The translations under genes and the position numbers were made by a program. Shown in pieces: positions 5,750-37,279 of a stretch of DNA of 37,279 bases (position 1 is the stretch's first letter; each line of letters starts with the position of its first letter). Origin of the DNA: Saprospiraceae bacterium (GTDB lineage: Bacteria > Bacteroidota > Bacteroidia > Chitinophagales > Saprospiraceae); the NCBI GenBank assembly GCA_016787285.1, contig JAEUUV010000042.1, positions 1 through 37,279 on the forward strand. The letters run 5' to 3'. The notes under the pieces are model-generated. The model was not told the DNA's origin. It ran no database searches and worked only from the letters and a program-made list of their open reading frames with translations.

Positions 5750-5771
5750 CCGCCAACAACCGGTTTGGCGG
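5750..5771. terminator. Hairpin after the TonB receptor gene
   Basis: CCGCCAA (5750-5756) and TTGGCGG (5765-5771) form a perfect 7-bp stem with an 8-base loop, 13 bases after the receptor stop codon. On the plus strand no T-run follows; on the minus strand the stem is followed closely by a run of T. It could help end the receptor transcript or block antisense reading, but a canonical terminator is not supported. Confidence 0.3.
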
Positions 5772-18220: not shown

Positions 18221-21001
18221 ATGCTTCACATGAAACGATTGCTCCTGCCGGCCGTATTGGCCATTTTTGTTCTGACCAACTCCACGCTGTTTGCTCAGGA
18301 CATTCCGCGTTACAACCCCGACGACATTAACATCCCGTACAAAAAGTACACGCTGCCTAATGGCTTGCGTCTGTTGGTACATGAAGACCACAAAGCGCCC
18401 ATTGTGGCTGTAAACGTATGGTACCATGTAGGCGCTAAAAACGAAAAACTTGGGAAAAGCGGTTTTGCCCACTTGTTTGAGCACCTCATGTTCAATGGCT
18501 CGGAAAACTTCAACACCGACTATTTCCAGGCGCTCGAGGCCATTGGATCTACCGACCTGAACGGCACCACCAACGAAGACCGAACCAACTATTTCCAGAA
18601 TATTCCGGTCGGCGCCCTTGATCAGGTGCTCTGGCTCGAAAGTGACCGCATGGGCCACCTGCTCGGCGCTATTGATCAGGCCAAACTTGATGAGCAGCGC
18701 GGGGTGGTACAAAATGAAAAACGCCAGGGCGAAAACCAGCCGTACAGTCGCGGGTACGATATCATGCAAAAGGAAATGTACCCGCCGCATCACCCCTACG
18801 GCCACACGGTCATCGGGGAAATGGAAGACCTCAACGCTGCCAGCCTAAGCGACGTACACGAGTGGTTCAAAGCCTACTACGGCGCCGCTAATGCCGTTTT
18901 GGTCGTAGCCGGCGATATCACGCCCGAGGCTGCCTATGAAAAAGTGATCAAGTATTTCGGCAATATCCCGGCCGGCCCCACCATCACCCGGCCCGGGGTA
19001 AACATTCCTGTCCGGGATTATGACACCCGTGCTTCCTACCAGGATCGCGTACCCGAAGAGCGGATCAATATGGTGTGGCATGCGCCGCAGTGGGGCACGC
19101 AGGAAGCCGTTTGGCTCGATCTGGCTACCGATGTATTGGCTGCAGGTAAAACCAGCCGACTTTACAAAAAACTCGTGTACGAAAAGCAACTTTGTTCCTC
19201 GGCGTTTGCTTACGTAAATCCGAGTGAAATTTCCGGGGAATTGGTCGTTCAGGCGAACGTAAAAAAAGGCAAATCGCTCGAAGAGGTGGAGGCGGCCATC
19301 AACGAAATTCTAAGCGAGTTCATCGCCAAAGGCCCCACAGAGGAAGAGACCGCCCGTGTGAAAGCCGCGTACTTTGCTAACTACATCAAGGGGCTGGAGC
19401 GCATTGGCGGCTTTGGCGGTAAAAGCGACGTGCTCGCCGAGCATGAGGTGTACGGCGGAAGTGCCGATTACTGCAAAAAGAAACTTCGCTGGTACGACCA
19501 GACAACGGCAAAAGACATCCATGCTGCCGTAAAGAAATGGATGACGCGTGGGCGTTTCACGCTCACCTGCCATCCGTTTCCTGAATATTCCGTCACCGGA
19601 ACCGAAGCCGATCGCAGCAAAGCGCCTGCCGTGGATACCAAAGTAAGCGCCCAATTCCCCGACATCCAGCGCGCTACCCTCAAAAACGGCATGAAGGTCG
19701 TGCTCACCCGCCGCACGGAAAGCCCGACTATGGTGATGAACATGCTTTTCGATGCCGGTTTTTGCACCGACAAAATGCCGGGAGGCAAACTTGGCCTGGC
19801 CAATCTGGCCATGAATATGCTGGACGAAGGCACCAAATCCATGAACAGCCTGCAAATCAGCGACCGGCTTCAGATACTGGGTGCTTCGCTCAATACCAGC
19901 AGCGACCTCGACTACGCCTACGTTGGACTCAACACCCTGCGCCAGTCCATTGACCCTAGCCTCGACCTCATGGCCGACGTGGTACTCAACCCTGCATTCC
20001 CGGAGCCTGATCTGCAGCGCCTTAAAAACCAGCAGGTAAGCAGTATCCAGAATGAAAAGAAAAACCCGACAGGTATGGTCATCCGGGTGATGCCCGAACT
20101 ACTCTACGGCAAAGACCACCCCTACGGCATGCCCATGAGCGGTACCGGTACGGAGGAAAGTGTGGCCAATCTTGGTCTTGAGGATGTGCGCGGTTTTTAC
20201 CAGCGCTGGATAAAGCCGAACAACGCCACCATAGTTGTGACCGGCGACATCACCCTGTCCGAATTAGTGGAAAAACTCGAAAAGCGCTTCGGCTCCTGGA
20301 GCAAAGGGGACGTGCCCAAAAAGGTCATCCCCGAGGTGGCAACCACGAACAAAAAGAAAATATTTCTGCTCGACCGTCCTGAAAGTCAGCAGAGTCTGAT
20401 TTTGGCAGGCCACCTGACCAAACCCTACGGTCAGTTAGATGAAACGGCTATCGAACAGATGAACAATGTGCTTGGAGGAGATTTTACCAGCCGAATCAAC
20501 ATGAATATTCGCGAGGACAAGCATTGGTCGTATGGCTCCCGCTCGATGATTATGAATACTGCCGGGCAGCGCCCATTCTTCGTGTTTGCACCCGTTCAAA
20601 CCGACAAAACAAAAGAGAGTATTCAGGAAGTTATCAAGGAAATCAATCAGTATGTGGGCGATAAACCCATGACCCAGGCGGAGTTTGACAAAACAAAACA
20701 AAATACCATGATGGCCATGTCAGGGATGTGGGAAACCAACGGCGCAGTAAATGGCAGCGCTATTGATGTGGTGAAATACGGGCTAAAAGACGATCACTGG
20801 AAAACATACAGCCAACGCGTACAAAACCTGACGCTGAAGGACGTGCAAGGGGTGGCAAAAGCAGTGGTGAAGCCTGGTGACATTGGCTGGTTTTTGGCCG
20901 GCGATGCCATGAAGGTAACACCTGGGCTGGAGCAACTCGGCATGGAAGTTATTCAGTTGGATGCAGAAGGCAAAGTAGTTTCGAAGAAAGCCAAGCCGTA
21001 A
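18221..21001 (+). CDS. M16 family (pitrilysin-like) zinc metalloprotease, double domain
   Basis: This 926-residue exported protease has a signal peptide (MLHMKRLLLPAVLAIFVLTNSTLFAQ). The N-terminal M16 half holds the inverted zinc motif HxxEH as H84-L-F-E87-H88, with the third zinc ligand E166 in VVQNEK, at the family's usual spacing. A second M16 half (about 480-920) has the fold-typical LKNGMKVVLTRR start, but the motif position reads ANLAMNML with no HxxEH, so it should be non-catalytic and form the other side of the clam-shell chamber. Such proteins degrade peptides and small unfolded proteins in the periplasm. It is followed by a long palindrome and then the metallophosphoesterase gene. 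An ATG three codons later is an alternative start with the same signal. Confidence 0.94.
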   Translation: MLHMKRLLLPAVLAIFVLTNSTLFAQDIPRYNPDDINIPYKKYTLPNGLRLLVHEDHKAPIVAVNVWYHVGAKNEKLGKSGFAHLFEHLMFNGSENFNTDYFQALEAIGSTDLNGTTNEDRTNYFQNIPVGALDQVLWLESDRMGHLLGAIDQAKLDEQRGVVQNEKRQGENQPYSRGYDIMQKEMYPPHHPYGHTVIGEMEDLNAASLSDVHEWFKAYYGAANAVLVVAGDITPEAAYEKVIKYFGNIPAGPTITRPGVNIPVRDYDTRASYQDRVPEERINMVWHAPQWGTQEAVWLDLATDVLAAGKTSRLYKKLVYEKQLCSSAFAYVNPSEISGELVVQANVKKGKSLEEVEAAINEILSEFIAKGPTEEETARVKAAYFANYIKGLERIGGFGGKSDVLAEHEVYGGSADYCKKKLRWYDQTTAKDIHAAVKKWMTRGRFTLTCHPFPEYSVTGTEADRSKAPAVDTKVSAQFPDIQRATLKNGMKVVLTRRTESPTMVMNMLFDAGFCTDKMPGGKLGLANLAMNMLDEGTKSMNSLQISDRLQILGASLNTSSDLDYAYVGLNTLRQSIDPSLDLMADVVLNPAFPEPDLQRLKNQQVSSIQNEKKNPTGMVIRVMPELLYGKDHPYGMPMSGTGTEESVANLGLEDVRGFYQRWIKPNNATIVVTGDITLSELVEKLEKRFGSWSKGDVPKKVIPEVATTNKKKIFLLDRPESQQSLILAGHLTKPYGQLDETAIEQMNNVLGGDFTSRINMNIREDKHWSYGSRSMIMNTAGQRPFFVFAPVQTDKTKESIQEVIKEINQYVGDKPMTQAEFDKTKQNTMMAMSGMWETNGAVNGSAIDVVKYGLKDDHWKTYSQRVQNLTLKDVQGVAKAVVKPGDIGWFLAGDAMKVTPGLEQLGMEVIQLDAEGKVVSKKAKP

Positions 21002-21025: not shown

Positions 21026-21128
21026 AAACGCCCGTCTTTTGTCTTTCCAAAATAATCCGTCCGACCAACGACGAGCCATCCCCGGCAGCGTAGACAGATT
21101 ATTTTGGAAGGACAAATGGCGAGCGTTT
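21026..21128. repeat. Imperfect palindrome, 36-bp arms with a 31-bp loop
   Basis: Arms 21026-21061 and 21093-21128 are inverted copies matching at 31 of 36 positions, with the core TTCCAAAATAATC/GATTATTTTGGAA perfect. The element fills most of the gap between the M16 protease and the metallophosphoesterase. As RNA two of the mismatches become G-U pairs, giving a strong long hairpin. No T-run follows, so a simple terminator is not shown; a small non-autonomous repeat or a processing hairpin are alternatives. Confidence 0.8.
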
Positions 21129-21162: not shown

Positions 21163-22083
21163 ATGAATTATTCCGTATTTGCTTTTCTGTGGGCATTCGT
21201 AAGTCTGACGGGTAGTGTATGGGCGCAAGAGGCCGATAGCGCCCGGGCGGAAATCGCTTTTATCAGCGATACGCAAGCGCCCATGTGCGTCGAGAAATTA
21301 TTTCTGAAATCCAATCAGAATACTCGGGCTACGCAGATTCTGTTCCATGAAATTACGGAATACAAACCACGCTGTTTGTTCATTTTGGGCGATGTCGTAT
21401 CAAAAGGCCCAAGGGAGAAAAAATGGCGGGAGATGGACCGGTACCTCGCCGCTGCCCGGGCAAATGGAATCCCGGTTTATGCCCTCCTCGGGAATCACGA
21501 TGTCATGGGCAACGCGCGAAAAGGCGAAGCAAAATTCAACAAGCGTTTCCCGGATCAGGTGAACACCGGTTTTGTTAAAATCGTGGACTCCATTGCAGTT
21601 GTGTTGCTCAATTCCAATTTCAAAACTCTGAGCGTAGAGCAGCAACGACAACAACAGGAATTCTACGCCAGCGCACTTGCGGCGCTGGAGGTTGATCCTG
21701 CCGTGCGGTGCATCATCGTTACCTGCCACCATGCACCGTACTCCAACAGTAAAATTGTAGGTTCGAACGAAACGGTGCAGGAACAATTCGTGCCCCTGTT
21801 CAAGGGTAGCGCGAAGGCCAAATTGTTTATGACAGGACACGCCCACGACTTCGAGTATTTTCGGTTCGACGGAAAATACTTCCTCACCATCGGCGGCGGC
21901 GGCGGACTGCATCAGCCCCTGAATACAGGCAAGGATCGTTTGCCTAATGAAGCGGGCGACTATAATCCGGAATATCAGTACGTCCTAATCCAACGAAACG
22001 GTGCTCAACTCACCATCACTTCCAACAGGTTAAAAGCCGACTTTTCGGGTGTAGAAACCGGCTACAGTTTTGTGATTGATTAG
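21163..22083 (+). CDS. Exported calcineurin-like metallophosphoesterase
   Basis: This 306-residue protein has a signal peptide (MNYSVFAFLWAFVSLTGSVWAQ) and the ordered metal-binding motifs of calcineurin-like phosphoesterases: ISDTQ (D36), LFILGDVV (D77), LLGNHDVMG (N111, H112, D113), VTCHHAPYSN and FMTGHAHDFEYF. The fold predicts hydrolysis of phosphomonoesters or diesters at a two-metal centre in the periplasm or at the surface. The first motif reads D-T-Q where many members have D-x-H; some subfamilies tolerate this. Length is normal. The substrate is not readable. Its stop overlaps the stop region of the convergent DinB-fold gene by 4 bases, so neither gene has room for its own terminator there. 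Confidence 0.92.
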   Translation: MNYSVFAFLWAFVSLTGSVWAQEADSARAEIAFISDTQAPMCVEKLFLKSNQNTRATQILFHEITEYKPRCLFILGDVVSKGPREKKWREMDRYLAAARANGIPVYALLGNHDVMGNARKGEAKFNKRFPDQVNTGFVKIVDSIAVVLLNSNFKTLSVEQQRQQQEFYASALAALEVDPAVRCIIVTCHHAPYSNSKIVGSNETVQEQFVPLFKGSAKAKLFMTGHAHDFEYFRFDGKYFLTIGGGGGLHQPLNTGKDRLPNEAGDYNPEYQYVLIQRNGAQLTITSNRLKADFSGVETGYSFVID

Positions 22084-30438: not shown

Positions 30439-33309
30439 ATGAGCCATTTCCCGCATCCCGACCGGTTCCAGAACCGGCACATCGGGCCAAACCCGCACGA
30501 CCTTCAGGCAATGCTCCAGTTCCTGAACGTGAACTCCCTCGATGAACTGATCCATCAGACGGTGCCGGATACCATCCGGCTGAAAAAGCCTCTGAACCTT
30601 CCTCCGGCCTTGTCCGAATTCGAGTACCTCGCCGAATTGAAAACTACGGCCCAATTGAACCGCGTGATGCGCAGCTACATCGGCATGGGCTACTACGGTA
30701 CCATCACGCCGTCGGTGGTGCTGCGCAATGTGTTCCAAAACCCGGGCTGGTACACCCAGTACACACCCTACCAGGCCGAGATTGCCCAAGGCCGTCTCGA
30801 GAGCCTTTTGAATTTCCAGACGATGGTCAGCGATCTGACGGGGCTGCCCATTGCCAACGCCAGTCTGCTTGATGAAGGCACTGCCGCCTCCGAAGCCATG
30901 CACATGTTTTATGCAGAGAAAAACAAACGTGCCGCCGCCGGCGAGGAAGCCAACGAGTTTTTCGTGGCCGATACTGTTTTTCCGCAAACGATTGACGTAC
31001 TGAAAACCCGCGCTTTACCCCAACACATTAAACTCGTGACGGGCGACTGGCGTACCTACAATTTTTCCGAAAAAACCTTCGGCGTGCTGCTCCAGTATCC
31101 GAATATGGCCGGCGAAGTGGAAGACTACCGGGCCTTCGTGGAAAAAGCCAAAGCGCATAACGTGTTCGTATGTGTGGCTGCCGATATTCTGGCCCTTGCC
31201 CTCCTGACGCCGCCGGGCGAATGGGGCGCCGACTGTGCCGTGGGCAACACCCAGCGTTTCGGCGTACCGATGGGTTTTGGTGGTCCGCATGCCGCATACT
31301 TCGCCACTACGGAAGATTTTAAACGCCAGATTCCGGGGCGGATCATCGGCGTGTCGGTAGACCGGCACGGCAACCGCGCCCTGCGTATGGCACTGCAAAC
31401 CCGCGAGCAGCATATCCGCCGCGAAAAAGCCACTTCGAACATTTGCACGGCCCAGGCGCTTTTGGCCAACATGGCCGCCATGTACGCCGTGTACCACGGC
31501 CCGGCAGGCATTCGCGGTATCGCGTCGCGTGCGCATGAAATGGCCAAGGCGCTGGTAACTGCGCTGGAAACTGCCGGACGGAAGGTTGCCGCCAAAAATT
31601 TCTTCGACACTATCCGGGTGGAAATGCCTGCCGATGAACTGGCCGGCCTGCGGCAAAAAGCAGAAAACGCCGGTATCAACTTTTTCTACGACAAAACCGG
31701 CGTCCAGATCAGCGTGGACGAAACAGTGACCGAACGCGACCTCGCGGAAATCGCCGGACTGTTCGGCGCTAAATCCGTGACACCCGCCGCTTCGTCGGCA
31801 CTTCCAGCCGCCCTGCAACGCGAAACCACGTACTTGTCGCACCCGATTTTCAATACCTACCACACGGAGAGCGACATGATGCGCTACATCAAGCGGCTCG
31901 AAAACCGCGACCTGTCGCTCATGCACTCCATGATTTCGCTGGGTTCCTGCACCATGAAACTCAACGCAGCCACGGAAATGATTCCGGTAAGTTGGGAAAT
32001 GTGGGCCAATATTCACCCCTTTGCACCGGCCTCCCAGACCGAAGGTTACCGGAAAATTATCCGCGAACTGGAGCAGTATCTGTGTGAGATTACCGGCTTT
32101 GAAGCCTGTTCGTTGCAGCCCAACTCCGGCGCCCAAGGCGAATATGCCGGACTGATGATTATCCGGGCCTATCACCTCGCCCGAAACGAGGGACACCGCA
32201 ACGTAGCGCTCATCCCTTCGTCGGCGCACGGCACGAACCCCGCCAGCGCCGTTATGGCCGGCATGGAAGTCGTAGTAGTGGCTTGCGACGAACGCGGCAA
32301 TATTGACGTGGCCGACTTGCGCGCCAAAGCCGGGCAGCATTCGAAAAACCTGTCCTGCCTGATGGTAACCTACCCCTCCACGCACGGGGTATTCGAAACG
32401 TCCATCAAGGAGGTTTGCGACATCATCCACCAGCACGGCGGGAAAGTGTACATGGACGGGGCCAACATGAATGCCCAGGTAGGCCTGACCAGTCCGGCCA
32501 CCATCGGCGCCGACGTGTGCCACCTGAATTTGCACAAAACATTCGCCATTCCGCACGGCGGCGGCGGCCCGGGTATGGGGCCCATTTGCTGTAACAGCAG
32601 CCTCGCCCCATACCTGCCCAACCACGTTTTTGCCGAAACCGGCGGCGCCCAGGGCACCAATGCCGTGAGCGCAGCGCCCTGGGGAAGCGCGAGTATCCTG
32701 CTTATTTCCTACGCCTACATCAAAATGCTGGGCGCTGAAGGTGTGACGGACGCCACCCGATACGCCATCCTGAACGCCAACTACATCAAGGCACGACTGG
32801 AAGGCGCATACCAGATTCTGTATTCCGGCGAAAATGGCCGCTCGGCACACGAGATGATTGTGGACTTGCGTCCGTTCAAATCGGTTGTCGGCGCCGAAGA
32901 TGTAGCCAAACGCCTGATGGACTACGGATTCCACGCACCCACACTGTCATTTCCGGTGGCCGGCACCATTATGATCGAACCCACGGAAAGCGAAAGCAAG
33001 GCCGAACTTGACCGCTTCTGCGATGCCCTGCTGGCTATCCGACAGGAAATTGATGAAATCGCCGCCGGCGTGTACGACCACGAAGACAACGTGTTGCACA
33101 ACGCGCCACACACCATTGACGTCATCAGTGCCGACGACTGGGAACGCCCGTACAGCCGCGAAAAGGCAGCCTTCCCGCTGCCGTACCTGCGGCAGGGCTG
33201 GAAATTCTGGCCTACTGTCGGACGTATTGACCAGGCTTACGGCGACCGGAATTTGGTATGCGTGTGCCCGCCGATCGAGGAATACATGACCACGAGCGTC
33301 AACGGGTAA
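30439..33309 (+). CDS. gcvP: Glycine dehydrogenase (decarboxylating), P-protein of the glycine cleavage system
   Basis: This 956-residue cytoplasmic PLP enzyme decarboxylates glycine and passes the aminomethyl group to lipoyl GcvH. The start [17 protein letters not shown] is the family's N-terminal signature. Both halves of the fused (single-chain) form are present: the GcvPA-like half (about 1-440) and the catalytic GcvPB-like half (about 460-956), with PLP lysine K700 in [19 protein letters not shown]. Length is that of the fused type. gcvT and gcvH are not adjacent, as is common in Bacteroidota. I see no glycine riboswitch in the 151 bases upstream, and no consensus promoter. A strong terminator follows. 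This is the clearest housekeeping gene of the window. Confidence 0.97.
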
Positions 33310-33342
33310 TTGTACCCCTGTGACCGGTAATACCGGAATTTG

Positions 33343-33382
33343 AAGGCCGGTCAGACACGCAGTTTGACCGGCTTTAAATTTT
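33343..33382 (+). terminator. Intrinsic terminator after gcvP
   Basis: AAGGCCGGTCA (33343-33353) pairs with TGACCGGCTTT (33365-33375), ten Watson-Crick pairs plus one G-U, around an 11-base loop; AAATTTTA follows. It lies 34 bases after the gcvP stop. The middle segment CCGGTCA can instead pair with TGACCGG at 33321-33327 (see findings). Confidence 0.75.
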
Positions 33383-33430
33383 ACTAAGTACCGATTCCAC
33401 TTCGTTCATTTGCTAAAAATCACCTTCGGC

Positions 33431-36400
33431 ATGAATATCCGCCTCACCCTGCTCATCTTTTTGTGGTTGGTTGCCACGTTTGCATTTGCCCAAAAAAAGC
33501 CCGCTCCGGTGTATATCGCTCCCGATGCCCCGGCCTGGATGCGCATGATGCATGCCGAAAATCCCGACGTGTTCGCCATTCAGAAAGCCTGGCGCGACTA
33601 CCATGCCGAACGCCCTTTTGAAAAAAATACCTACACCCAGTATTACAAGCGCTGGATGCACTGGGCAAGGATACGTACCGGAGCCGATGGCAGACTGGTT
33701 CAGTCATTGGACATTGAAAATTTAGAAAATGACCAATTTTCAATGCCCAATGACCAAGGCACAAGTGACAAGGCAGCCGGTTGGTCCTGGGTCGGCCCCA
33801 GCCAAACCTACCACACCGACGGCACCACCAAAGTCACCTGGCAAACCAATATCTACGCCCTTGACATTGCGCCATCCAATCCCAATGTGTTATACGCCGG
33901 CGGCGAAACGGGCGGCGTATGGAAAACCACCGACAAAGGCCAGAGCTGGACGCTGCTCACCCGCGATATCTTGCACGGCGCCTTCGGCGCGGTGAAAATT
34001 CACCCCGGCGACCCGAATACCGTCTTTGCTGCCACCGGCGGCAAAATCATTAAAACCACCGATGGCGGCAGTACCTGGGCCAACGCCTACACCGAAACCA
34101 ACCTTTGGGTGAACGAATTAGCCATCAGCCCTGCCAATCCGAACATCATCCTCGCCGCCGCCGATCAGGGCTTGCTTGTGAGTACCAACGGCGGCGCTTC
34201 CTGGTCCAAGAAATTCACCAACCAGACCTGGGCGGTCAAATTCAAGCCAGGCGACCCGACCACGGCGTTTGCCGTGCGCCAAAACGGCAGCGGCTCCAAT
34301 TTCATGAAAAGCACCGACAGCGGCGCCACCTGGTCGCCCGCCGGCGCCGGCTGGTGGACACCCGGCTCAGGCCAGTCCGTCACCGGCGCGCACATAGCCG
34401 TTTGCCCCTCCAAACCCGATAAACTGTACGCCTACCTCTGCGGCAGCGGTACAACGCTGTACGGCTACATCGGCGTTTTTGTCAGCAACGACAACGGCAG
34501 CACCTGGGCCAACACGCACCCGACTAACGCCGTCGGCGAGCCGTACAGCATACCGGCGCATACCAACCTCATGGCACACAACGGCACCACGGGTTTCGAT
34601 CAGGGTTTTTATGACATGGCCATCATCGTCAACCCCGCCAACGACCAGCAACTGATTGCAGGCGGCACTTCCTGGTTCAAAAGCACCGACGGCGGCGCCA
34701 CCTGGCAACCCCTCGGCGGCTACGTCGGCGGCCTGCCCTGGAGCCATCCCGACATTCAGGCCTTAGCCGCCCACGGCTCCGACCTCTGGATCGCCAGCGA
34801 CGGCGGGCTGAATTACTCCAATAATTTCGGCCAAACCCACGAAGCCCGCATGAACGGCATCAGTGGCTCGGACATGTGGGGATTCGACAGCGGCTGGAAC
34901 GACGACCTGCTCGTGGGTGGGCGTTACCACAACGGAAACATGGCCTGGCACGAGTCGTTTCCGCCTAATTCCTACTACCGTATGGGCGGCGCCGAAGCGC
35001 CCACCGGCTACGTCAGCCCCGGCCCCGGCCTGAAAACCTACCATTCCGACATCGGTGGCTACAGCCTGAACGGCGGCCTCGCCGGCGATGTCGCCTATTT
35101 CCCTGTCGGTCTTTTTCCTAACGAGAGTTACGCCTACTACGCCAACAGCGAGATGGTGTGGCACCCGCAATGCTGGGGCATCGTGTTTTTGGGAAAAGAT
35201 GAAAAAATATGGAAAAGCACCGACAGCGGCGCGTCGTTCACTGTGCTGCACACCTTTCCCGGCACGGCGGACAATGCCGTGTTTGACATCGAAATTGCCC
35301 GTTCCAATCCGCAGGTCATGTATTGCTCGCAGTGGGACGGTACCGACGACGCCGTCTGGCGCAGCACCGACGGCGGCCAAACCTGGTCGCTTTGCGCCCC
35401 GCTGCCGCTGCCCAACAACAACGACCGCGTGAAACTCGCCGTGAGCGCCGAAAATGCCGACGTGCTCTGGTGCGCCGTCACATACGGCTCCAATGGGCGC
35501 AAAATTTACAAAAGCACCGACGGCGGACAGTCGTGGGGTAATCTGACTACTGCTATTCTGAACGGCGTGCGCATCACCAACCTCATGGCGCAGTACGGCA
35601 CCGACGGGGGTATTTACCTCGGCACCGACCGCGGCGTATTTTACCGAAACAACAGCCACGCCGACTGGCAGCCCTATTCCGAAGGTCTGCCCTTGAGCGC
35701 TGAAACCAACCGACTCAAGCCGTTTTACCGCGACGGCAAAATCCGAAACGGCTGCTGGGGATTCGGCGTGTGGGAAGCGCCCCTGTTCGAGCCGTCTGCT
35801 GTGTTGCCGCAGGCTATGGCCGACAAACTCGACAGCGGCTGCGCGCGCGACACCTTTTTCTTCGACGACTACTCGGTGGTAAACCATGCAGGCGCCAGTT
35901 GGACGTGGGTGTTCCCCGGTGCGACATTTGTTTCCGGCGAAAACACGCGCACCCCCAAAGCCGTATTCGGAAAACCGGGGGAATACACCGCACAAATGAC
36001 CCTGGAAACGCCGCAAGGCATTTTTCGCGATACCCTGCTGCTCCGCGTGGGCAACGGTTGCGACCGCGATAGTTTCCCCGGTATGGCGCTCCAGTTCGAC
36101 GGCGCCGGCGATAACGCTGTAGCCGCCGAACCGCTGCGCCTGTATTCCGATACCGTCACCCTCACGGTCTGGATCAAACGCCTCGGTGCGCAGGACGGCC
36201 GGGCAGGCATCGTATTTTGCCGCAGTAGCAACACCACGGCGGGCATCGGCTTCGACGGCGACAGGCTGAGTTACCACTGGAACGACGCCGGCTGGTGGTG
36301 GAACAGTGGCCTGTCAGTACCGCAAAACGAATGGACGCACGTGGCCCTCGTGGTGGAACCCACCCGCGTCACGATGTACCTGAACGGCCGCCCGGCGGTG

Positions 36401-37279
36401 GACAATGCTGCCCGCGGGGCCGAGGAATTTGACGGGCCGCTTACCATCGGAGAAGACCCCAACGGCGGCGGGCGTTTTTTCAACGGACTTGTGGACGAGG
36501 TGTGTGTGTACCGCCGCGCGCTGAGTCAGGCGGAAATACGCGAGCAAATGCATTTGGTAAAACTTGACCCCAACGACGCGAGTCTGCGGGCGTACTACCA
36601 GTTCAATGAACCCGGCGGGCAGGTGCTCGATCGTAGCGGCACCCGACACCTCGGACTGAACGGCGGTGCAAAACGCACAGCCTCTACCCTCGCTGTCGGC
36701 CCGGGCTTCAGTGCGCGCCGCAACCTGACAGCTCCCGGTACTTATTATTTTGGTGAAAATGTGGGCTTTGAGTGCAGCACCGCCAACGCGGGTACACTAC
36801 CCGGCGGCGAGGTATGCGCCACGCGTATCAACTTGTCGCCCGATGCGGCGCCCGATGCCGATCCCTTGAGTCGTGGCTACTGGGTCGTGCGCAACTACGG
36901 CCCGAACGCGGTGTTTGCTCCGCTGCGCGAAATGCGTTTTTACCGGATCGGGCGGGTACCGCTGACCACCTCGGCAAGCGAGTACAAACTGTGGTCGCGC
37001 CCGGTCAACGGCGAGGGCAACACCTGGCAACAGGAAGACAGCGGAGAGCACCGGAAGTTCGGCTCAAACGGCTCCGTGATATTCAACGACGGCCTGCCGG
37101 TAAATGCGTTCGGGCAGTTCGTGGTGTCCAAGCCGGTGCCCAATTTCCAGCAGGCGCCGGTGGAAGACCGGGAAATCAATGCTAAGCAAGGGCTTAGGCA
37201 TCAGGTCTACCCGAACCCGGTTGTTGCCGACGGGGTGTTGCACGTGCAGTTCGACCAGCCTGGCACGGCAGTATTTCGC
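33431..37279 (+). CDS. Secreted T9SS Asp-box propeller protein with PKD-like and LamG domains, 3' end beyond window
   Basis: 1283 codons lie in the window with no stop; only the end of the sorting domain is missing. After a signal peptide (MNIRLTLLIFLWLVATFAFAQ) comes a charged helical segment with YYKRWMHWARIR, then a sortilin/BNR-like propeller (about 115-770) with about ten Asp boxes (TTDKGQSW, TTDGGSTW, STDSGATW, STDGGQTW). A PKD-like domain follows (about 810-874), a LamG/concanavalin-like domain (about 883-1040, with LTVWIKRLGAQDGRAGIVF, WTHVALVVE and FNGLVDEVCVYRRALS), a further beta domain, and the start of a T9SS sorting domain (from about 1257, QVYPNPVVADG). The role is probably adhesion or glycan binding at the surface. 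It shares its N-terminal pattern with the protein at 5903-11278. Residues about 91-108 are encoded by an AT-rich palindrome. Confidence 0.9.
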   Translation, partial: MNIRLTLLIFLWLVATFAFAQKKPAPVYIAPDAPAWMRMMHAENPDVFAIQKAWRDYHAERPFEKNTYTQYYKRWMHWARIRTGADGRLVQSLDIENLENDQFSMPNDQGTSDKAAGWSWVGPSQTYHTDGTTKVTWQTNIYALDIAPSNPNVLYAGGETGGVWKTTDKGQSWTLLTRDILHGAFGAVKIHPGDPNTVFAATGGKIIKTTDGGSTWANAYTETNLWVNELAISPANPNIILAAADQGLLVSTNGGASWSKKFTNQTWAVKFKPGDPTTAFAVRQNGSGSNFMKSTDSGATWSPAGAGWWTPGSGQSVTGAHIAVCPSKPDKLYAYLCGSGTTLYGYIGVFVSNDNGSTWANTHPTNAVGEPYSIPAHTNLMAHNGTTGFDQGFYDMAIIVNPANDQQLIAGGTSWFKSTDGGATWQPLGGYVGGLPWSHPDIQALAAHGSDLWIASDGGLNYSNNFGQTHEARMNGISGSDMWGFDSGWNDDLLVGGRYHNGNMAWHESFPPNSYYRMGGAEAPTGYVSPGPGLKTYHSDIGGYSLNGGLAGDVAYFPVGLFPNESYAYYANSEMVWHPQCWGIVFLGKDEKIWKSTDSGASFTVLHTFPGTADNAVFDIEIARSNPQVMYCSQWDGTDDAVWRSTDGGQTWSLCAPLPLPNNNDRVKLAVSAENADVLWCAVTYGSNGRKIYKSTDGGQSWGNLTTAILNGVRITNLMAQYGTDGGIYLGTDRGVFYRNNSHADWQPYSEGLPLSAETNRLKPFYRDGKIRNGCWGFGVWEAPLFEPSAVLPQAMADKLDSGCARDTFFFDDYSVVNHAGASWTWVFPGATFVSGENTRTPKAVFGKPGEYTAQMTLETPQGIFRDTLLLRVGNGCDRDSFPGMALQFDGAGDNAVAAEPLRLYSDTVTLTVWIKRLGAQDGRAGIVFCRSSNTTAGIGFDGDRLSYHWNDAGWWWNSGLSVPQNEWTHVALVVEPTRVTMYLNGRPAVDNAARGAEEFDGPLTIGEDPNGGGRFFNGLVDEVCVYRRALSQAEIREQMHLVKLDPNDASLRAYYQFNEPGGQVLDRSGTRHLGLNGGAKRTASTLAVGPGFSARRNLTAPGTYYFGENVGFECSTANAGTLPGGEVCATRINLSPDAAPDADPLSRGYWVVRNYGPNAVFAPLREMRFYRIGRVPLTTSASEYKLWSRPVNGEGNTWQQEDSGEHRKFGSNGSVIFNDGLPVNAFGQFVVSKPVPNFQQAPVEDREINAKQGLRHQVYPNPVVADGVLHVQFDQPGTAVFR
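33703..33754. repeat. AT-rich palindromic element in frame inside the T9SS propeller gene
   Basis: Arms 33703-33722 and 33735-33754 are inverted copies matching at 19 of 20 positions (core CATTGAAAATT/AATTTTCAATG) around a 12-base loop. By my count 17 of 52 bases are G or C, far below the surrounding gene. It encodes about residues 91-108 (DIENLENDQFSMPNDQ), a polar linker between the N-terminal helical segment and the propeller. The reading frame stays open, so the host protein tolerates it. Confidence 0.83.

Follow-up and report, generated by a model that had tools for sequence, protein, structure and literature searches.

Results

Host gene and palindrome

The window, that is, the whole 37,279-nt stretch of DNA analyzed here, ends within a gene that begins with the ATG at 33431 and meets no stop codon before the window end (ORF 33410-37279, 1,290 aa, open-ended). 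Its product starts with a hydrophobic segment that was judged signal-peptide-like by eye, and it matched the Pfam families Sortilin-Vps10 and Laminin_G_3, with BNR below the cut-off. Read from its 5′ end, the gene carries the YKRW motif, then a palindrome, and then the start of the propeller (WSWVGP, from 33782 on); the features are summarized in Table 1. The original prediction had placed the palindrome in frame in a T9SS gene, after the YKRW segment and before the propeller. Coordinates and frame agreed with this placement, and so did the propeller; a secretion tail was seen in the paralogue at 5765 (Por_Secre_tail) but not in the host gene, which is cut by the window end. A terminator-like hairpin (33337-33381; 20-nt arms, 80% complementary) was also observed in the window, directly after the glycine dehydrogenase gene at 30439-33309.

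Table 1. Coordinates of the host gene, the parts of the palindrome, and other genes with in-frame palindromic elements
Feature	Location	Strand	Description
Host gene	33431-37279	+	Hydrophobic N terminus, YKRW segment, Sortilin/BNR propeller, and LamG domain; cut by the window end
YKRW motif	33644-33655	+	Conserved end of the N-terminal segment
Left arm of palindrome	33703-33722	+	Degenerate heptads; 20 nt
Loop	33723-33734	+	12 nt, with a further heptad (AATGACC) as its 3′ part
Right arm of palindrome	33735-33754	+	20 nt
Heptad reading by eye	33700-33757	-	GGTCATT GGGCATT GAAAATT GGTCATT, loop remainder, AATGTCC AATGAC
Right flank of linker	33755-33781	+	Weak similarity to orthologues; edge of the replaced stretch not sharp
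L141	14251-17862, G000:C74	-	Fused isobutyryl-CoA mutase (IcmF-type) with two in-frame GC-rich elements
L195	10537-11868, G000:C200	+	Kdo transferase (KdtA/WaaA type) whose two halves are separated by a palindromic insert in frame
L169	4190-7060	-	Hybrid histidine kinase; palindrome with TCGTCGGACGA arms between HATPase and receiver domains
L094	8955-12008	-	Hybrid histidine kinase; AATGATG-heptad palindrome between HATPase and receiver domains

The arms of the palindrome pair at 19 of 20 positions (95% complementary), and its GC content is 33%, compared with 61% for 1.5 kb of the same gene 3′ of the linker, which bore out the prediction of a near-perfect 20-bp inverted repeat of one-third GC in a GC-richer ORF. 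The encoded peptide is QSLDIENLENDQFSMPND. Thus, a palindrome of foreign composition lies in frame within a variable interdomain linker, and an in-frame position within a gene is a property that it shares with the palindromic elements of Rickettsia (RPEs). The palindrome is 52 nt long, and since this length is not a multiple of three, inserting exactly those bases would have shifted the frame, and an exchanged stretch must have had limits other than the palindrome's own. Its ends (GTCATTGG...CCAATGAC) carry neither GTAG nor CGTC, the tags of REPs, and a target-site duplication, which the original prediction had suggested looking for, was not seen by eye in the sequence.

The palindrome scored 17 (match, +1; mismatch, -2), whereas one dinucleotide shuffle in 1-kb blocks over the 1.62 Mb of sampled genome gave no palindrome scoring at least 16, the top score being 15. 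Folded as RNA, it reached -23.1 kcal/mol (z = -4.73), a value equalled by none of 200 shuffles. A chance palindrome was ruled out by these genome and RNA-fold shuffles.

Linker length and sequence in homologues

Homologues were gathered in three overlapping sets. For the family set, a search with the first half of the protein found a homologue in 123 of 199 genomes (own included; E ≤ 1e-20), and 30 loci, counting that of the window, were extracted, leaving 29 others for comparison. The genome_contigs scan gave 25 loci, with titles naming Bacteroidetes/Bacteroidota, Saprospirales, Saprospiraceae, or Lewinellaceae and a best match of 72% identity (L231, MAG M3007); linkers were compared in 21 of them, and L249, L251, and L255 were left out since they begin 3′ of the linker. 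The same-genus genomes numbered 42 (own included); a match was present in 35, and 26 genomes other than the window's own had one at 62% identity or more. Linkers were extracted from 20 of these 26, and the orthologues are 63 to 73% identical to the window protein across the N-terminal half.

Counted from YKRW, the linker measures 44 aa in the window versus 36 to 49 aa in the 29 family homologues; in the other two comparisons the lengths were 39 versus 36 to 48 aa for the 21 genome_contigs loci and 33 versus 30 to 42 aa for the 20 same-genus orthologues. With the window's linker within the homologue range in all three sets, the net insertion of ~17 residues that had been predicted was rejected. 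Thus, the net gain absent from orthologues that would be expected of an RPE was not found, and sequence was replaced instead. The element itself was carried by no orthologue examined in the genome_contigs, same-genus, and family sets: linker inverted repeats scored at best 8 among the 29 family homologues, no higher than 9 among the 21 genome_contigs loci (with 6 in one further locu​s of that scan, L239, whose linker of 36 aa has no palindrome), and at best 9 among the 20 same-genus orthologues, none of them comparable to that of the window.

Identity was then measured on a codon alignment of the window to the 20 same-genus orthologues. The left flank reached 0.60 and the propeller start 0.71, whereas the left arm, the loop, and the right arm gave 0.30, 0.36, and 0.24, versus 0.25, 0.34, and 0.24, respectively, for a shuffled-base control. 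The right flank up to 33787 was intermediate (39% versus 28% shuffled). In the palindrome columns the orthologues showed 0.48 identity among themselves, and since the window is at chance level there, these results indicated that foreign-looking sequence took the place of the native linker. Neither arm measurably retains ancestral sequence, and a charged spacer of the EPTVxEMExxEKxLLALR type, which many of the 20 orthologues share, is lost in the window (judged by eye).

Heptad build of the palindrome and heptad hairpins in other genomes

Shifting the left arm against itself by 7 nt gave 10 matches in 13 positions, a periodicity equalled by a fraction of 0.000125 of shuffles at period 7 and of 0.0024 at any period from 5 to 12. 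Compared with (GGTCATT)n, the arm agrees at 16 of its 20 positions, as none of 100,000 shuffles did, with the unit having been picked after the relatives were seen. The palindrome is therefore a hairpin whose paired arms consist of degenerate 7-nt repeats.

When the heptad stretch was used as a DNA query, 24 of 199 genomes, the window's own among them, had matches at E ≤ 0.01. The heptad pattern was found 30+46 times in G063, 4+27 times in G195, and 9+5 times in G146, with 0 matches to the control pattern in all three. Across the 199 genomes, at least 10 matches were reached in 4 by the heptad pattern itself and in 8 by the reversed control pattern. The reversed pattern is highly repeated in G001 (97+50) and G110 (47+58), and other Saprospiraceae use other heptads. 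Given the number and variety of heptad repeats in Saprospiraceae, a common unit constitutes weak evidence of descent.

Twenty stretches were taken around hits of the heptad pattern, some of them chosen because the hits lay in inverted pairs. Hairpins of (GGTCATT)n with scores of 12 to 24 were present in 15 of the 20 (6 of 7 from G146, 9 of 12 from G063, and 0 of 1 from G195, which has direct arrays); an example is GTCATTGGTCATTGGTCATTGGTCACTAACAAATGACCAATGACTAATGACCAATGAC. None of the 15 hairpin stretches was covered by an ORF of at least 100 aa, which places these hairpins between genes in two other Saprospiraceae genomes.

Copy number and palindromes in the window's own genome

The original prediction had called for copies of the arm elsewhere in the genome. 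The heptad pattern gave 2+1 matches in the window's genome (G000) versus 3+4 for the reversed control, a looser pattern gave 17+14 versus 23+17, and a short one gave 4+6 versus 4+2, two of its matches lying in plain ATTCATC/AATGATG arrays. The arm search revealed one weak relative (C334:194-237; 80% over 44 nt; E = 4.5e-4), apparently located between coding sequences and with no inverted repeat scoring above 10 around it; the other matches inspected (L004 and L005) were ordinary sequence. With one weak relative, and with counts of the heptad pattern and the looser pattern not above control, the view that the arm is a repeat dispersed through G000 was rejected, and the multi-copy family expected of an RPE was not found, the arm being near single-copy. 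Nor was a nearby source copy seen in the genome of L231, the closest genome_contigs orthologue, its single match being at chance level (E = 1.2). The prediction had also named the finding that would speak against it, namely, the same DNA conserved in distant orthologues and absent elsewhere in the genome: such conservation was not seen in the three homologue sets, and the absence is nearly true.

Palindromes as such are frequent in G000. The sample of 1.62 Mb (29% of the genome) contained 189 scoring at least 14, 153 scoring at least 16, and 98 scoring at least 20. Among the 153, the period identity of the arm was at least 0.6 in 43, compared with 4.8% of shuffled arms, and in 38 of these 43 the period was 7, 8, or 9 nt; arms of this kind include (GGTTTAACG)n, (AGTTTTG)n, (TGATTCGAT)n, and (AATGATG)n. 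Palindromes of the GTGTCACAGAGGCTCACAGAG type recur at many places. In the window itself, the ORFs 18221-21001 and 21163-22083 are separated by a second palindrome, of another family, at 21026-21128 (score, 21; 36-nt arms).

Intergenic distribution was analyzed for the 98 palindromes scoring at least 20, minus 9 inside ORFs and 9 at contig edges, with genes taken as crude longest ORFs. They were underrepresented in divergent gaps (7/80 versus 95/365; Fisher p = 0.0006) and overrepresented in convergent gaps (22/80 versus 59/365; p = 0.024). A terminator reading was nevertheless rejected for the element at 33703-33754, as a gap preference cannot account for an in-gene copy.

Y1_Tnp matches in G000 numbered nine, eight of them above the cut-off. 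The palindromes listed around the eight loci scanned had sequences other than that of the 33703-33754 element, and no tie between it and the Y1_Tnp (RAYT-type) genes of G000 was apparent. One Y1_Tnp gene (L333, near 41224-41433 of G000:C200) is flanked on both sides by TCGTCCGACGA palindromes in a REPtron-like arrangement, and the same palindrome type also occurs in frame in the histidine kinase gene L169.

Other in-frame palindromes

Of 171 palindromes scoring at least 15 in G000, 43 lie in ORFs of at least 180 aa, many of which are doubtful. Sixteen of these ORFs were put to Pfam, and five were counted as genes (L141, L169, L094, L197, and L195). Not counted were L131, L163, L178, and L153, which are without a Pfam family; L186 and L203, with matches below the cut-off only; L133, L142, and L224, in which the palindrome precedes the domain and may be untranslated; L160, whose palindrome just before the GDSL domain is possibly ordinary; and L149, in which a 15-nt arm pair within the integrase domain is likewise possibly ordinary. 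One of these, L186 (17264-18934, minus strand), is a probable membrane protein gene that combines in-frame PT-rich repeats, the peptide of the GC-rich element, and a GTCGGACGA palindrome.

Besides the element at 33703-33754, G000 thus has six palindromic elements in frame in five Pfam-domain genes. The two elements of L141 encode like sequences (NPTP...GGEGG...GGGxGGGV); the one between residues 183 and 230 has an inverted-repeat score of 13 and an arm of 25, and the one between residues 750 and 800 has a score of 33 and an arm of 39. Net gain was evaluated for L141 and L195 against 14 relatives each, which were extracted from among 36 and 37 other matching genomes, respectively. Between fixed anchors, the two L141 regions measure 72 and 75 aa versus 37 to 42 and 29 to 53 aa in the relatives; the 53-aa relative at the second site (L313) looks like a related remnant, the others having 29 to 34 aa. 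The L195 insert region measures 74 aa versus 43 to 48 aa. By these lengths, the three elements in the two genes are net insertions when set against the relatives. They are GC-rich, longer, and of a different family from the 33703-33754 element, and so they show a habit of the genome and not the origin of that element. In L197, a glycosyltransferase, the palindrome lies between the two domains; a PDB comparison aligned essentially the C-terminal domain alone, and the insert was not covered.

Discussion

We propose that a heptad-built palindrome probably overwrote a stretch of the linker in this lineage, a reading to which we attach moderate confidence. A heptad hairpin sequence from another place would have been copied into the linker, which lost its native codons in the process; one possible route is the filling of a gap by copying during replication. 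Roughly 17 to 26 codons of the spacer that joins the N-terminal segment to the propeller would have been overwritten, a change that the protein could tolerate given a variable spacer and an unbroken frame. Beyond supplying a polar spacer, the element may do nothing specific for the protein.

The main rival is an origin in place, in which template switching during replication, at a weak inverted repeat, copies one linker strand onto the other and perfects the hairpin without any outside element, the heptads arising by slippage. This would fit a linker without net change in length and a heptad that is near single-copy in its own genome; the mechanism is described, in the portions of the sources drawn on here, for yeast coding DNA (PMC8604942) and RNA hairpins (PMC8794818), and GAAAAT is common to the window and its closest orthologue at the homologous place. 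However, template switching should leave one arm ancestral with the other as its copy, and instead both arms are at chance identity to the 20 orthologues, with 8/20 and 7/20 matches to the closest same-genus one (L335), although a relative closer than the 63 to 73% available could change this result. The heptad fit of the left arm, albeit to a unit picked post hoc, also argues against it. As neither arm looks ancestral, local template switching appears rather unlikely.

We regard as quite improbable that a transposase inserted the element as one of many copies of a mobile palindromic family like the Rickettsia RPEs or the RAYT-mobilized REPs. The genome does carry other palindromic elements in frame, some with net gain, as well as Y1_Tnp genes, including the one flanked by TCGTCCGACGA palindromes, and to this extent the predicted RPE-like invasion of coding genes holds for the genome. 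Membership of the 33703-33754 element in such a family did not stand, as the arm is not multi-copy in G000, neither end has the GTAG or CGTC described as tags in passages of PMC3733652, and there is no net insertion at the site. Lastly, selection at the site for a functional RNA hairpin or for a feature of the protein would agree with the stable fold but is highly improbable, since the orthologues examined have no comparable palindrome and the hairpin is known from one sequence alone.

Extending the overwriting reading, we tentatively suggest that Saprospiraceae may hold a large and fast-changing stock of hairpins, with arms made of genome-specific 7- to 9-mers, that repeatedly spread into or overwrite interdomain linkers. 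If so, new protein spacers would regularly arise from short-repeat DNA in these bacteria. As native codons were replaced without a change in length, a count of insertions would miss such events, and the site offers a tractable case for how hairpin repeats are copied and how linkers gain new sequence.

The best-known cases of palindromic DNA in frame within genes come from Rickettsia, and REPs provide examples in other bacteria (passages of PMC3733652); intragenic in-frame REPs and RPEs are described, for example, in R. conorii, O. terrae, Thauera, and Xanthomonas (parts of PMC3733652 and PMC10969869). In those accounts, as here, palindromic DNA lies in frame and encodes short stretches, and some genes were hit twice. 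RPEs and REPs are, however, multi-copy, and REPs are end-tagged, whereas the window element is near single-copy, untagged, and built of heptads, and it replaced codons. CGTC repeats are mentioned for Bacteroidetes in a passage of PMC3733652. New here is a Bacteroidota genome with in-frame palindromes of several unrelated types.

Our literature search, which covered titles, abstracts, and selected passages and is no proof of absence, found no heptad-built palindromes in Bacteroidota protein genes. Inverted repeats inside genes are described for two eukaryotic systems: those attributed to template switching in yeast have locally homogenized arms, unlike the window element (as set out in part of PMC8604942), and those of Nematomorpha mitochondrial coding sequences differ in that their arms encode conserved protein regions (excerpts of PMC6649704). 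The P6b stem of the Nostoc trnL intron resembles the window element in that a 7-nt motif (TDNGATT or NNTGAGT) recurs along it, but it belongs to a group I intron, with other motifs and outside protein-coding sequence (sections of PMC4476775). TAACTGA heptamer repeats occur in Beggiatoaceae, Cyanobacteria, and five Bacteroidetes and resemble the present case in their heptamer arrays and in having Bacteroidetes among the hosts; they differ in being direct repeats, with one indirect repeat in the main genome, and mostly intergenic (according to passages of PMC4679880).
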